Below, piece by piece: positions 15,196-19,465 of a stretch of 64,000 bases of DNA (the first letter of the stretch is position 1; each line of letters starts with the position of its first letter). The DNA lies in contig NZ_CP114283.1 of NCBI RefSeq assembly GCF_027107535.1, forward strand, positions 992,001-1,056,000, written 5' to 3'. The position numbers and the translations under genes were made by a program. This DNA is from Streptomyces aurantiacus (GTDB taxonomy: Bacteria; Actinomycetota; Actinomycetes; Streptomycetales; Streptomycetaceae). The notes under the pieces were generated by a model. The model saw only the letters and a program-made list of their open reading frames with translations, was not told where the DNA came from and searched no databases.

Positions 15196-17616
15196 GTGGC
15201 CGCTCAGGTTCAGCAGGAAATGGCGCTCGATCCGGTAGGCGATTCCGTGCGCGACCGGGAGATCGGCGTCGAACAGGAACACCTGGACCGGGTGTACCAG
15301 CGCCTTGAGGAAAAGATCCACGAGGCGGAGTTCCTGATGAACGACGCCGCCCAGCGCGGCCAGGTCGGTACACCCGGAGCACTCGCGGAGCGTGACGCGC
15401 AGGTGTTCCGGGCGGGGATCCACCTCAACCGCCTGAACAACGAGTTCGAGGACTTCCTCTTCGGACGGATCGACCTCCTCCTCGGCAAGGACGGCAAGAA
15501 GGGGCCCGACGGCGCGTACACCGCGGTCGAGCCCGCCGAGGGCGCCGTACACGCCGACAACACCGCCGAGATCGCCGAGACACTCCACATCGGCCGTATC
15601 GGCGTCCTCGACGCGGACTACGCGCCGCTGGTCATCGACTGGCGGGCCCCGGCGGCCGCGCCGTTCTACCGCTCCACGCCGGTCGACCCGGGCCGGGTCG
15701 TACGCCGACGGGTCATCCGGTCCAAGGGCCGCAAGGTCCTCGGTGTCGAGGACGACCTCATGCGCCCGGAACTGAAGGCCACGCTCGCCGGGAACGAACT
15801 CGCGGTGATCGGCGACGGCGCACTGATGGCCGCGCTCGGCCAGGCCCGCAGCCACACCATGCGGGACATCGTCGCGTCCATCCAGGCCGAGCAGGACCAG
15901 GTCATCCGGGCGCCCGCCGCGTCCGTGACGTACGTGGAGGGCGGCCCCGGCACGGGCAAGACGGCGGTCGCCCTGCACCGGGCCGCCTACCTGCTCTACC
16001 AGGACCGCAGGCGGTACGCGGGCGGCATCCTGATCGTCTCGCCCACGCCGCTGCTGGTGGCGTACACCGAGGGCGTCCTGCCGTCCCTCGGCGAGGAGGG
16101 CCAGGTCGCCATCCGCGCGGTCGGCTCCCTGGTCGACGGCGCCGAGGCCACGCTGTACGACGCACCGGCGGTGGCCCGCGCCAAGGGGTCCCACCGGATG
16201 CTGAGCGTGCTGCGGAAGGCGGCACGGGGGGCATTGGAGACGCCGGGCGCACCCGGCCGGTCCGCCGGTGCCGCGCAGGCCGGGCAGCTCGCGTTCGGAG
16301 ACGAGGCCGAGGACGGCGACGAGCCCGGCACACAGGCCCCCGCGGTCACGACCACCCGCCTGCGCGTCGTCGCCTTCGGGCGCCGGCTGGAGCTGGAGGC
16401 GCCCGAGCTGGACCGCATCCGGCAGAGCGCGCTCTCCGGAACCGCGCCGGTGAACCTGCTGCGCCCGCGCGCCCGCAAGCTGCTCCTCGACGCCCTGTGG
16501 TCGCGCTCCGGCGCCGGCACCCGGCACACCGACCCCGAGCTGGCCGCCGAACTGCGCTCGTCGTTCGACGAGGACGTCAGCTCCGAGGACGCCTTCATCG
16601 CGTTCCTCGACGCCTGGTGGCCCGAGCTGACGCCGCGCGCCGTGCTGGCGGCCATGGCCGACGAGAGACGCCTCGGGCGCTGGGCGCGGCGGATCCTCAA
16701 CCCCGGCGAGGTGCGGCGGGTGGCCCGCTCCCTCAAGCGGGAAGGGCTCTCCGTGCACGACGTGGCCATGCTCGACGAACTGGAGGCGATCGTCGGCACC
16801 CCGGCCCGCCCCCGCAGGAAGCGCGACCTCGACCCGCTCGACCATCTGACGGGCCTCGAGGAGCTCATGCCCCAGCGTGAGGAGACACAGCGCGAGCGGG
16901 CCGAGCGGCTGGCCCAGGAGCGCACGGAGTACGCGCACGTGATCGTCGACGAGGCGCAGGACCTCACGCCCATGCAGTGGCGCATGGTCGGCCGCCGGGG
17001 CCGGCACGCGACCTGGACGGTGGTCGGCGACCCCGCCCAGTCGTCGTGGTCGGACCCGGACGAGGCCGCCGCGGCCCGTGACGAGGCTCTCGGCTCCCGC
17101 CCGCGCCGCCGCTTCACGCTCACCGTCAACTACCGCAACCCCGCCGAGATCGCCGAACTCGCCGCGAAGGTCCTGGCCCTCGCGATGCCCGGCTCCGCGT
17201 CCCCGTCCGCGGTCCGCTCCACGGGCGTACGGCCGCGCTTTGTGGCAACGGACCATGGACAAGGCGCCGTGGTGCGGGAGTCCCTGGCCAAGACCGTGCG
17301 GGAGGAGGCCGCCCATCTGCTCGACCAGGTCGACGGCACGGTCGGTGTCGTCGTCGCGATGAACCGCCGCGCCGAGGCCGCCCGGTGGCTCGCCGGACTC
17401 GGGGACCGCGTGGTGGCGCTCGGCAGCCTGGAGGCGAAGGGCCTGGAGTACGACGCCACGGTGGTCGTCTCCCCGGCGGAGATCGCCGACGAGTCGCCGG
17501 CCGGGCTGCGTGTGCTGTACGTGGCGCTGACCCGGGCGACGCAGCAGCTCACCGTCGTCTCGGCGGACCGCGACGAGCCGGACGCCAACGGCGTACCGGA
17601 CCTCCTGCGGGACTGA
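15196..17616 (+). CDS. HelD/HelR-type RNA polymerase-recycling ATPase (UvrD-like superfamily 1)
   Basis: The protein has 806 residues with a GTG start. Residues 1-100 are a long helical arm (EQEHLDRVYQRLEEKIHEAE). The IDWRAPAAAPFYR motif follows, and it is diagnostic of HelD proteins. Walker A GGPGTGKT is at 249-256 and Walker B DEAQD begins at D585; the later motif V box is GLEYDATVVVSPAEI. In established cases HelD/HelR remodels and recycles stalled RNA polymerase, and in Streptomyces the HelR form also gives rifamycin tolerance. Which subclass this is cannot be decided by eye. It sits directly downstream of sigU-rsuA, an interesting neighbourhood for an RNA polymerase factor. Confidence 0.8.
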   Translation: MAAQVQQEMALDPVGDSVRDREIGVEQEHLDRVYQRLEEKIHEAEFLMNDAAQRGQVGTPGALAERDAQVFRAGIHLNRLNNEFEDFLFGRIDLLLGKDGKKGPDGAYTAVEPAEGAVHADNTAEIAETLHIGRIGVLDADYAPLVIDWRAPAAAPFYRSTPVDPGRVVRRRVIRSKGRKVLGVEDDLMRPELKATLAGNELAVIGDGALMAALGQARSHTMRDIVASIQAEQDQVIRAPAASVTYVEGGPGTGKTAVALHRAAYLLYQDRRRYAGGILIVSPTPLLVAYTEGVLPSLGEEGQVAIRAVGSLVDGAEATLYDAPAVARAKGSHRMLSVLRKAARGALETPGAPGRSAGAAQAGQLAFGDEAEDGDEPGTQAPAVTTTRLRVVAFGRRLELEAPELDRIRQSALSGTAPVNLLRPRARKLLLDALWSRSGAGTRHTDPELAAELRSSFDEDVSSEDAFIAFLDAWWPELTPRAVLAAMADERRLGRWARRILNPGEVRRVARSLKREGLSVHDVAMLDELEAIVGTPARPRRKRDLDPLDHLTGLEELMPQREETQRERAERLAQERTEYAHVIVDEAQDLTPMQWRMVGRRGRHATWTVVGDPAQSSWSDPDEAAAARDEALGSRPRRRFTLTVNYRNPAEIAELAAKVLALAMPGSASPSAVRSTGVRPRFVATDHGQGAVVRESLAKTVREEAAHLLDQVDGTVGVVVAMNRRAEAARWLAGLGDRVVALGSLEAKGLEYDATVVVSPAEIADESPAGLRVLYVALTRATQQLTVVSADRDEPDANGVPDLLRD

Positions 17617-17668
17617 GCGGGTGAACGGGGCCGGGACGGGCCGGAGCGGCCCGGGCGGCGCCGGACCC

Positions 17669-17707
17669 GTGAACCGGCGGGCCCGGCGGCGTGAACCGGC
17701 GGGCCCG
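17669..17707 (+). repeat. Short tandem direct repeat
   Basis: GTGAACCGGCGGGCCCG occurs twice (17669-17685, 17691-17707) with a 22-bp period in the spacer after the helicase gene. Confidence 0.7.
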
Positions 17708-17745
17708 TCCTCGTGAAGGTTCTCTGTGAACCCACGGTGCGGGAA

Positions 17746-17773
17746 TTGCCTTACGGGGATCGTTTGTTACCGT
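17746..17773 (+). promoter_or_regulatory. Candidate promoter of the structured RNA
   Basis: A -35-like TTGCCT (17746-17751), a 16-nt spacer and a -10-like TACCGT (17768-17773) would start transcription at about 17779-17781. That is exactly where the closing stem of the downstream structure begins. Neither hexamer is perfect. Confidence 0.45.
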
Positions 17774-17778
17774 TGATG

Positions 17779-17920
17779 TGACACCGGCCCGATCCAAGCC
17801 CCCGGGCCCAACCTTCGTCGCTACGAGCGACCACTTGCCGCGAGGCGAGCATGGCGGGTCGGTGTCATTGAACGTGTAGGGCACGCGAGAGGTCCACGTC
17901 ACCCGGTGACGTGGACCTCT
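17779..17920 (+). ncRNA. Candidate structured small RNA or riboswitch-like leader upstream of malic enzyme
   Basis: The first 13 nt (17779-17791) pair with 17855-17867 (12 Watson-Crick pairs and one G-U), enclosing a domain with two clear hairpins. One is GTCGCT-ACG-AGCGAC (17817-17831). The other is CTTGCC-GCGA-GGCGAG (17834-17849), which has a GNRA tetraloop. GGCCCG at 17786-17791 can alternatively pair with CGGGCC at 17803-17808, which would open the closing stem. A 16-bp terminator hairpin follows at 17888-17920. The layout fits either an independent RNA of about 140 nt or a metabolite-sensing leader. The malic enzyme ATG is 130 bp beyond the terminator. The family is not recognised. Confidence 0.55.
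17888..17920 (+). terminator. Strong hairpin terminator
   Basis: Perfect 16-bp inverted repeat (17888-17903 with 17905-17920; in practice a few central bases form the loop) followed by TTTC. It ends the candidate RNA before the malic enzyme gene. Confidence 0.75.
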
Positions 17921-18049
17921 TTCGTCATGAACAAAAGGTTCGCAATCCGGGGTGGCTACCACGTACTCCGCGGTAGGTGCGACGATCGGACGGCAAACCC
18001 GCGAACCAGTAGTGCTCGCAGTACCCGGTGAAAGCAGAGGAAGTCGGCC

Positions 18050-19465
18050 ATGGCAACGGCGCCCAGCGTCTCCTACTCGATTACGGTCCGGTTGGAGGTG
18101 CCCGCGAGCGGTACCGCGGTCTCCCAGATCACCACGGCCGTGGAATCACACGGAGGCTCGGTCACCGGCCTCGACGTGACGGCCTCCGGCCACGAGAAGC
18201 TCCGGATCGACGTCACCATCGCGGCGTCGTCCACGGCGCACGCCGAGGAGATCGTCGAGCAGCTGCGCGGCATCGAGGACGTCACGCTCGGCAAGGTCTC
18301 CGACCGTACGTTCCTGATGCACCTCGGCGGCAAGATCGAGATGGCGTCCAAGCACCCCATCCGCAACCGTGACGACCTCTCGATGATCTACACGCCGGGC
18401 GTGGCCCGCGTGTGCATGGCGATCGCCGAGAACCCCGAGGACGCCCGCCGCCTCACCATCAAGCGCAACACCGTCGCGGTCGTGACGGACGGCTCCGCGG
18501 TCCTGGGCCTCGGCAACATCGGCCCGATGGCCGCCATGCCGGTCATGGAGGGCAAGGCGGCCCTCTTCAAGCGCTTCGCCGACATCGACGCCTGGCCGCT
18601 GTGCCTGGACACCCAGGACACCGACGAGATCGTCGCGATCGTCAAGGCGATCGCCCCGGGCTTCGCCGGCATCAACCTCGAGGACATCTCGGCCCCGCGC
18701 TGCTTCGAGATCGAGGCCCGCCTCCGTGAGGCCCTCGACATCCCGGTCTTCCACGACGACCAGCACGGCACCGCGATCGTCGTGCTCGCCGCGCTCACGA
18801 ACGCCCTGCGCGTGACCGGCAAGGCCATCGGCGACATCCGCGTCGTCATGTCCGGCGCGGGCGCGGCCGGTACGGCCATCCTGAAGCTGCTGCTCGCCGC
18901 GGGCGTCAAGCACGCCGTCGTGGCCGACATCCACGGTGTCGTGCACGCGGGCCGGGAGGACCTGGTGAAGGCCGCCGCGGACTCGCCGCTGCGGTGGATC
19001 GCCGACAACACCAACCCCGAGGGCGTCACGGGGACGCTGAAGCAGGCCGTGGCCGGCTCGGACGTCTTCATCGGCGTCTCGGCCCCGAACGTGCTGGACG
19101 GCGACGACCTGGCCACCATGGCCGACGGCGCGATCGTGTTCGCACTCGCGAACCCCGACCCCGAGGTCGACCCGGCCATCGCCCGGCTGACGGCGGCGGT
19201 CGTGGCCACCGGCCGCTCGGACTTCCCGAACCAGATCAACAACGTGCTGGTCTTCCCCGGTGTCTTCCGCGGCCTGCTGGACGCCCAGTCCCGCACGGTC
19301 AACACCGAGATGATGCTTGCGGCCGCAACGGCACTGGCGGACGTGGTGACGGAGGACGAGCTCAACCCGAACTACATCATCCCCAGCGTCTTCAACGACA
19401 AGGTCGCCGGCGCGGTCGCCGGAGCGGTCCGCAACGCGGCGAAGGCCGCGGGCGTGACGGTCTGA
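18050..19465 (+). CDS. NAD-type malic enzyme with N-terminal ACT-like domain
   Basis: The protein has 471 residues. The ATG has GAGGAAG upstream. Residues 1-85 form an ACT-like regulatory domain (SYSITVRLEVPASGTAVSQI ... EEIVEQLRGIEDVTLGKV). The catalytic part begins at SKHPIRNRDDLSMIYTPGVA, with the tyrosine/proline signature. It includes FAGINLEDISAPRCFEIE with the metal-binding acidic residues, VFHDDQHGTAIV, and a Rossmann GAGAAGTAI dinucleotide site. It decarboxylates malate to pyruvate and CO2. Streptomyces has one NAD- and one NADP-dependent enzyme; assignment to the NAD form rests on remembered gene order. The upstream RNA structure may regulate it. Confidence 0.85.
   Translation: MATAPSVSYSITVRLEVPASGTAVSQITTAVESHGGSVTGLDVTASGHEKLRIDVTIAASSTAHAEEIVEQLRGIEDVTLGKVSDRTFLMHLGGKIEMASKHPIRNRDDLSMIYTPGVARVCMAIAENPEDARRLTIKRNTVAVVTDGSAVLGLGNIGPMAAMPVMEGKAALFKRFADIDAWPLCLDTQDTDEIVAIVKAIAPGFAGINLEDISAPRCFEIEARLREALDIPVFHDDQHGTAIVVLAALTNALRVTGKAIGDIRVVMSGAGAAGTAILKLLLAAGVKHAVVADIHGVVHAGREDLVKAAADSPLRWIADNTNPEGVTGTLKQAVAGSDVFIGVSAPNVLDGDDLATMADGAIVFALANPDPEVDPAIARLTAAVVATGRSDFPNQINNVLVFPGVFRGLLDAQSRTVNTEMMLAAATALADVVTEDELNPNYIIPSVFNDKVAGAVAGAVRNAAKAAGVTV

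Follow-up and report, generated by a model that had tools for sequence, protein, structure and literature searches.

A conserved RNA family of the class Actinomycetes with a stress-type promoter and no Rfam match

Introduction

What is encoded in the gap between a HelD/HelR-like gene and a malic enzyme gene of Streptomyces aurantiacus, and does it serve either neighbor? The gap lies in a 64,000-nucleotide (nt) stretch of contig NZ_CP114283.1 (positions 992,001 to 1,056,000; hereafter the window, in whose numbering all positions are given). An earlier note, made from the letters of the window, had seen in the gap a folded RNA that appeared to possess a promoter and a terminator of its own, and had suggested either a conditional switch upstream of malic enzyme or an RNA of the 6S type. 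To our knowledge, few actinomycete small RNAs have been followed beyond one genus. The analysis presented here indicates that the locus belongs to a conserved RNA family that has a stress-type promoter and matches no family in Rfam. We consider it likely that its product is a free-standing RNA of about 145 nt that acts in trans under SigR/SigH-type control, as a non-coding output of the response to thiol-oxidative and antibiotic stress.

A compact fold whose stems covary

The predicted fold of positions 17774-17928 has a free energy of -83.3 kcal/mol (z = -6.3), which none of 200 shuffled sequences equaled, and the core alone gives a folding z of -4.05. The 13-base pair (bp) closing stem (P1), the two hairpins within it (H2 and H3, one with a GNRA loop) and the terminator described by the earlier note were all recovered (Table 1). 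In the C-rich segment that separates P1 from H2, all 76 aligned sequences share CCCC.GG and a following A without variation. All 217 loci have GAGA, GCGA or GTGA as the H3 loop, the search motif itself having demanded G-any-GA at this position. The smallest hairpin, H1, is doubtful, with 32 of 78 cells unpaired at one of its three pairs. Promoter spacing (see below) suggests that the RNA probably begins within a few nt of position 17779, and a transcript running to the end of the terminator would be about 145 nt long.

The earlier note had proposed covariation in the stems as the check on its reading, and the stems do covary. Among 24 distinct sequences of the Streptomyces group, 100% of the cells of the 30 modelled pairs are paired, and 2 pairs have changed on both sides. 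In a set of 78 sequences chosen for diversity from 77 loci, 92.8% of pair cells form pairs and double-sided changes are seen at 22 pairs (323 cells), compared with 10-15 pairs (32-54 cells) in controls with slid partners, in an alignment that was fitted to the structure and favors paired cells; an earlier set of 48 sequences agrees with this result. Across the 78 sequences, all 12 modelled pairs of P1 show double-sided compensatory changes, while in H3 the inner pairs are invariant and one outer pair covaries. H2 exchanges G-C for C-G within the genus and C-G for U-A class-wide. When the alignment was made from sequence only, the pairs of P1 and H2 still showed many double-sided changes, and RNAalifold recovered part of P1 and H2 but paired the C-rich segment with H3, an alternative whose columns are mostly invariant and so cannot speak for or against it. 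No covariation is to be expected where there is next to no variation, as in CCCC.GG, the GNRA loop and the inner pairs of H2 and H3.

The mutually exclusive stem on which the earlier note had built its switch fared differently. The 6-bp competitor is present in the window (GGCCCG at 17786-17791 against CGGGCC at 17803-17808), but a Watson-Crick competitor of at least 6 bp is found in 10 of 78 family members, barely above the chance level given by shuffled segments (293 of 3900, or 7.5%). The structure and the promoter are conserved and the competitor stem is not.

The family is spread through the class Actinomycetes

A DNA search of 61 genomes located the element in 38, namely all 37 from the genus of the window plus a single, more distant one. 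When the locus was aligned for 30 of these 38 matching genomes, mean identity to the window was 0.96 in the core, 0.91 in the -35 element, 1.00 in the -10 element and 0.74 in the terminator, compared with 0.68 in the spacer, 0.58 in the discriminator and 0.24-0.42 in the outer flanks and linker. Across 30 Streptomyces-group loci, identity within the 88-nt core (17779-17866) stands at 97%. With a covariance model built from Streptomyces-group sequences (R1), matches at E <=0.1 were obtained in 171 of the 345 class genomes, representing 57 of the 126 genera sampled. The model was then rebuilt from the 78 diverse members (R2, cut-off E <=0.01). It matched 137 of 147 genomes of the window's own order (132 of 132 in its own family and 5 others weakly, with no match in the 10 genomes of one other genus of this sample), 128 of 200 genomes of another order, and 31 of 396 genomes in a sample of the phylum. 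All 31 lie within the class Actinomycetes, and no match fell outside the class among the 396. A pattern scan of named genomes gave at least 118 stretches, with Nocardia, Mycobacterium, Gordonia, Rhodococcus, Williamsia, Rothia, Kocuria, Arthrobacter, Microbacterium, Cellulomonas, Nocardioides, Geodermatophilus and Jiangella among the carriers listed, besides others; one search of the named loci took in 46 of the 118.

The earlier note had recognized no known class, and database searches bear this out: among the 4227 families of Rfam 15, none reached its gathering score at the RNA of the window or at the loci of 19 relatives. The scan returned two tRNA matches, both located away from the RNA. 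Around the RNA in the window and in three relatives, scans with relaxed thresholds yielded nothing better than weak hits that fell far short of the cut-offs (lowest E 0.11).

A promoter motif of the SigR/SigH type

The promoter that the earlier note had assigned to the RNA is indeed present, as one of the extracytoplasmic function (ECF) type instead of the sigma-70 type. A GGGAAT-N19-GTT motif spans 17741-17768 and ends 10 nt 5' of the core; in its GGAAT form (17742-17768) it places the SigR/SigH consensus GGAAT-N18-19-GTT (or GGAAC..GTT) just 5' of the presumed transcript start. The SigR consensus has been given as GGAAT-N18-GTT (PMC2375139) and as GGAAT-N18-19-GTT (PMC9205884). The motif is kept in 28 of the 30 aligned Streptomyces-group loci, the exceptions (L019 and L021) reading GGGATT. 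More broadly, over 211 of 217 motif loci (identical or contig-edge loci were dropped from promoter and terminator counts), a GGAA-type promoter stands upstream of the RNA at 51 of 58 Streptomyces-group, 25 of 39 outgroup and 45 of 114 named loci, compared with 52 of 18,623 background windows. The stricter form GGGAAT-N18-19-GTTA has 6 sites in the window's own genome, one of them at this RNA, as against 1 for a reversed control. Since the window holds two GGAAT-N18-19-GTT sites where 0.74 are expected, a single site proves little, and it is the conservation that carries weight. Taken together, the motif and its conservation suggest that the RNA would depend on SigR and be induced by stress.

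At the other end of the unit, 57 of 58 Streptomyces-group loci have a stem of at least 8 pairs 3' of the RNA, compared with 37 of 245 background windows; a consensus scan of the window locus detected neither a terminator nor a sigma-70 promoter. A GGAAT-N18-GTT site is also present in the rsrA locus of the window's own genome. In five genomes of one family (G088, G138, G283, G182 and G122) the RNA shares a contig with an rsrA gene, at a distance of about 23-32 kb.

Table 1. Features of the RNA locus and flanking genes (window coordinates)
Feature	Position	Strand	Basis or remark
-35 element GGGAAT, SigR-type promoter	17741..17746	+	mean identity 0.91 over 30 aligned Streptomyces-group loci
-10 element GTTA, overlapping TACCGT (17768-17773)	17766..17769	+	identical in 30/30 aligned loci
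Structured RNA core (P1-closed junction), ~88 nt	17779..17867	+	folding, covariation, conservation
P1, 5' strand, pairs with 17855-17867	17779..17791	+	closing stem of exactly 13 bp
P1 extension of 3 bp, predicted	17794-17796 with 17852-17854	+	folding
Hairpin H1, very small, predicted inside the C-rich segment	17798-17807	+	folding
C-rich segment CCCCCGGGCCCAACC, between P1 and H2, largely unpaired	17799..17813	+	invariant motif
Hairpin H2	17817..17831	+	compensatory changes in genus and class-wide
Hairpin H3, GNRA tetraloop GCGA at 17840-17843	17834..17849	+	folding, loop conservation
P1, 3' strand	17855..17867	+	folding, covariation
Terminator hairpin, 16 pairs including one G-U, short U-run only	17887..17921	+	folding
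Upstream gene, HelD/HelR-like RNA polymerase recycling ATPase (context only)	15196..17616	+	HelR/HelD models score best in NCBIfam, though below their cut-offs
Downstream gene, malic enzyme (context only)	18050..19465	+	weak N-terminal ACT_4 match, below cut-off

The RNA keeps its neighbors within the Streptomyces group and loses them beyond it

All 30 Streptomyces-group loci have the RNA lying between genes for HelD and malic enzyme, and in a set of 60 such loci, in which at least one place appears twice (L001 and L033), the RNA runs in the direction of both genes in 56. In the other four (L021, L042, L043 and L050) it is inverted between the same two genes. At L021, where the full sequence was inspected, promoter and terminator have turned along with the RNA, and transcription would point away from malic enzyme. 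Neither malic enzyme nor HelD was found at any of 39 outgroup loci, where the sequence searched mostly extended some 3 kb in both directions; the 30 Streptomyces-group loci, all with both genes, served as positive control. The strands of neighboring genes are mixed over 175 loci, and four Rhodococcus plasmids (L256-L259) carry unannotated partial matches to the RNA among unrelated neighbors. The lost linkage, the inversions, the mixed strands and the plasmid copies favor an RNA that acts in trans, or, at a minimum, speak against one that controls malic enzyme. Judged by sequence, the RNA would form a transcription unit of its own without a fixed neighbor, with the limit that many loci outside the Streptomyces group have no clear terminator or ECF promoter and that some neighbors recur within lineages.

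A second, long form of the RNA (L231-L242 and L244) gives matches of 109-115 nt in which H2 is lengthened and P1, the C-rich segment and H3 are kept. Some members of the genus have it as an additional copy, and it is the form listed in families f39 and f48. Of the 21 matches inspected, 15 are long and 6 short; a GGAA-type promoter lies 5-17 nt upstream in 13 of the former and 2 of the latter. Close copies of the RNA occur at L077, L240 and L241, with two each at the latter two loci.

Several features of these surroundings may be recorded in their own right. The malic enzyme has a weak N-terminal match to Pfam ACT_4, below cut-off. In the gap between the terminator and the malic enzyme gene, at window positions 17929-17946, an inverted repeat like CGAACAAAACGTTCGCAAT is shared by several relatives (L011, L012, L016 and L018; similar in L007 and L015), and other relatives carry TCTCGTATGGTGGAA...TTTTCCGAAA in its place; this repeat is possibly a promoter or operator of malic enzyme. 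Among the Rhodococcus plasmid copies, one stands beside an IS30 transposase gene and one between genes for actinobacterial IHF and Lsr2. An open reading frame of 137 amino acids (aa) runs antisense across the RNA locus (17549-17962) and is read as a chance frame in high-GC DNA.

Relation to known small RNAs

An expressed small RNA of S. coelicolor, scr2952, reportedly goes back to Vockenhuber et al. in 2011, and it is probably the counterpart of the RNA described here. This assignment is made by position and naming rule: scr0792 takes its name from SCO0791_SCO0792 (PMC11077062) and scr3559 lies between sco3558 and sco3559 (PMC9130861), while SCO2951 is malic enzyme (PMC7494193) and SCO2952 is HelD (PMC8655204), which together would place scr2952 in this same intergenic region. 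It has been described as expressed and conserved in more than 50% of the Streptomyces tested and is placed in Rfam (PMC8388888); cmscan at the window locus yields no family. The account of scr2952 in that paper describes no structure, class-wide family or sigma factor. Within the literature consulted, no conserved small RNA dependent on SigR or SigH was found, with the limit that an unnamed entry may be contained in the supplements of Moody 2013 (PMC3765725), Romero 2014 (PMC4681348) or PMC11109978, the last a survey of 50 genomes that includes S. avermitilis.

Other known RNAs offer partial parallels. MicA and RybB of E. coli are regulatory small RNAs that depend on an ECF sigma factor, and like them the present RNA combines small size, its own terminator, an ECF-type stress promoter and the lack of a fixed gene neighbor; unlike them, it has a more compact and invariant structure and a C-rich segment kept class-wide. 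A conserved C-rich segment is also the mark of 6C RNA, an actinomycete small RNA, but the window locus gives no Rfam match to 6C.

Points against a stress-induced RNA acting in trans

A number of observations weigh against the explanation that we favor. The ECF-type pattern is missing at 7 of 58 Streptomyces-group, 14 of 39 outgroup and 69 of 114 named loci, and many of the loci without it show a -10 element like that of primary sigma, so that stress control would not be universal. The Streptomyces-group -10 also fits the primary-sigma pattern TANNNT (58 of 58), which makes dual recognition by ECF and primary sigma factors possible. RsrA, the partner of SigR, matches 337 of 345 genomes of the class and the RNA is found in about half; with RsrA near-universal, their co-occurrence is uninformative and provides no tie. 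Terminator-like stems are only modestly enriched elsewhere (17 of 39 outgroup loci compared with 34 of 180 background windows, and 38 of 111 named loci, counted from the 114, compared with 90 of 513). Neighbors do recur within lineages, in two clusters of 74 and 24 genes, and a local role within those lineages is not excluded. The larger cluster encodes an uncharacterized protein of about 200 aa (for example at L069, L106 and L137), two members of which had no Pfam or NCBIfam match when scanned; the smaller encodes a PhoU_div (DUF47) protein. Finally, searches for partners of the C-rich segment were empty. Its longest complementarity to ribosomal RNA (rRNA) is 8 nt, compared with shuffle means of 7.8 and 8.3, and its 14-nt sequence has 9 complements with at most one mismatch in its own genome, itself included, compared with 14 for the control.

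Alternative explanations

The reading closest to the earlier note, a cis-acting riboswitch or attenuator in which an aptamer decides readthrough of the terminator into malic enzyme, draws on the position of the RNA upstream of and co-directional with that gene in the window and most Streptomyces-group loci, and on the terminator between the two. It does not survive the loci at which the RNA, with its promoter and terminator at L021, points away from malic enzyme, nor the failure to find the gene at any outgroup locus, mostly within about 3 kb on either side, the plasmid copies with unrelated neighbors and a competitor stem near the shuffle level, and we regard it as the least probable of the explanations considered. 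The plasmid copies, one of them beside a transposase gene, together with the in-place inversions, the close copies and the 2-3 matches in some genomes, would be at home in a mobile or repeated DNA element that is no functional RNA gene. Against such an element, P1, H2 and H3 show compensatory changes, most matching genomes have one match, the RNA occupies the same intergenic region in the Streptomyces-group loci examined, 15 of 21 inspected copies have their own ECF-type promoter, and no phage match was obtained, all of which makes a mobile element highly improbable, if marginally less so than a riboswitch.

An RNA polymerase-binding RNA of the 6S or Ms1 type, the other suggestion of the earlier note, would share with the present RNA a long-range closing stem, and in the Streptomyces group the upstream gene encodes HelD, an RNA polymerase recycling factor. 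The likeness ends there. A core of 88 nt and a predicted transcript of about 145 nt fall below the shortest 6S RNA (about 160 nt, in a range of about 160-200 nt; PMC9130861), the P1-closed junction with two conserved hairpins is not a rod with a central bubble, Rfam gives no 6S match, and Ms1 of S. coelicolor, with its published RNA polymerase association, is scr3559 at another locus (PMC11077062, PMC9130861). We therefore judge this type very unlikely. A housekeeping ribonucleoprotein, in which the RNA works mainly via one conserved protein or machine instead of pairing with mRNAs, is by comparison a quite conceivable alternative, though we rate it somewhat below an even chance, and it departs from the explanation that we favor in the last step only. 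Near-invariance of the C-rich segment and the inner hairpin parts over many genera fits one partner better than drifting mRNAs, and near-perfect complements in the genome are not in excess. On the other side, rRNA complementarity was no better than in shuffles and the partner searches were empty, and RNA polymerase is an unlikely partner in unstressed S. coelicolor, where the RIP-seq account in PMC11077062 names only scr3559 and scr0792 as polymerase-bound RNAs in exponential and stationary phase.

Proposed mode of action

For the stress-controlled, trans-acting RNA that we consider likely, the following sequence of events can be proposed. RNA polymerase carrying a SigR/SigH-type ECF factor would make the RNA upon thiol oxidation, and inhibition of translation may also trigger its synthesis, since antibiotics induce SigR (PMC4921905). 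The strong hairpin would end the transcript, and P1, a stem of 12-13 bp placed at or near the first transcribed base, would protect the 5' end. The invariant C-rich segment and the two conserved hairpins would then form the working surface. In the least certain step, this surface may bind one conserved partner, either a protein or G-rich translation start sites.

A broader proposal, which we put forward tentatively, is that an ancient RNA of the class Actinomycetes forms the non-coding arm of the SigR/SigH disulfide-stress regulon, joining a single conserved partner in a small ribonucleoprotein whose standing would be like that of 6S RNA or tmRNA. It would have a second, long-H2 form and, in some lineages, multiplied copies with stress promoters.

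Significance

The RNA reaches 57 of the 126 genera sampled in its class, combines strong covariation with the lack of an Rfam match, and has a promoter that predicts when it would be made. This prediction is directly testable, by induction with diamide and by dependence on sigR. The family may serve as a starting point for learning how antibiotic producers and related bacteria regulate their response to thiol stress at the RNA level.
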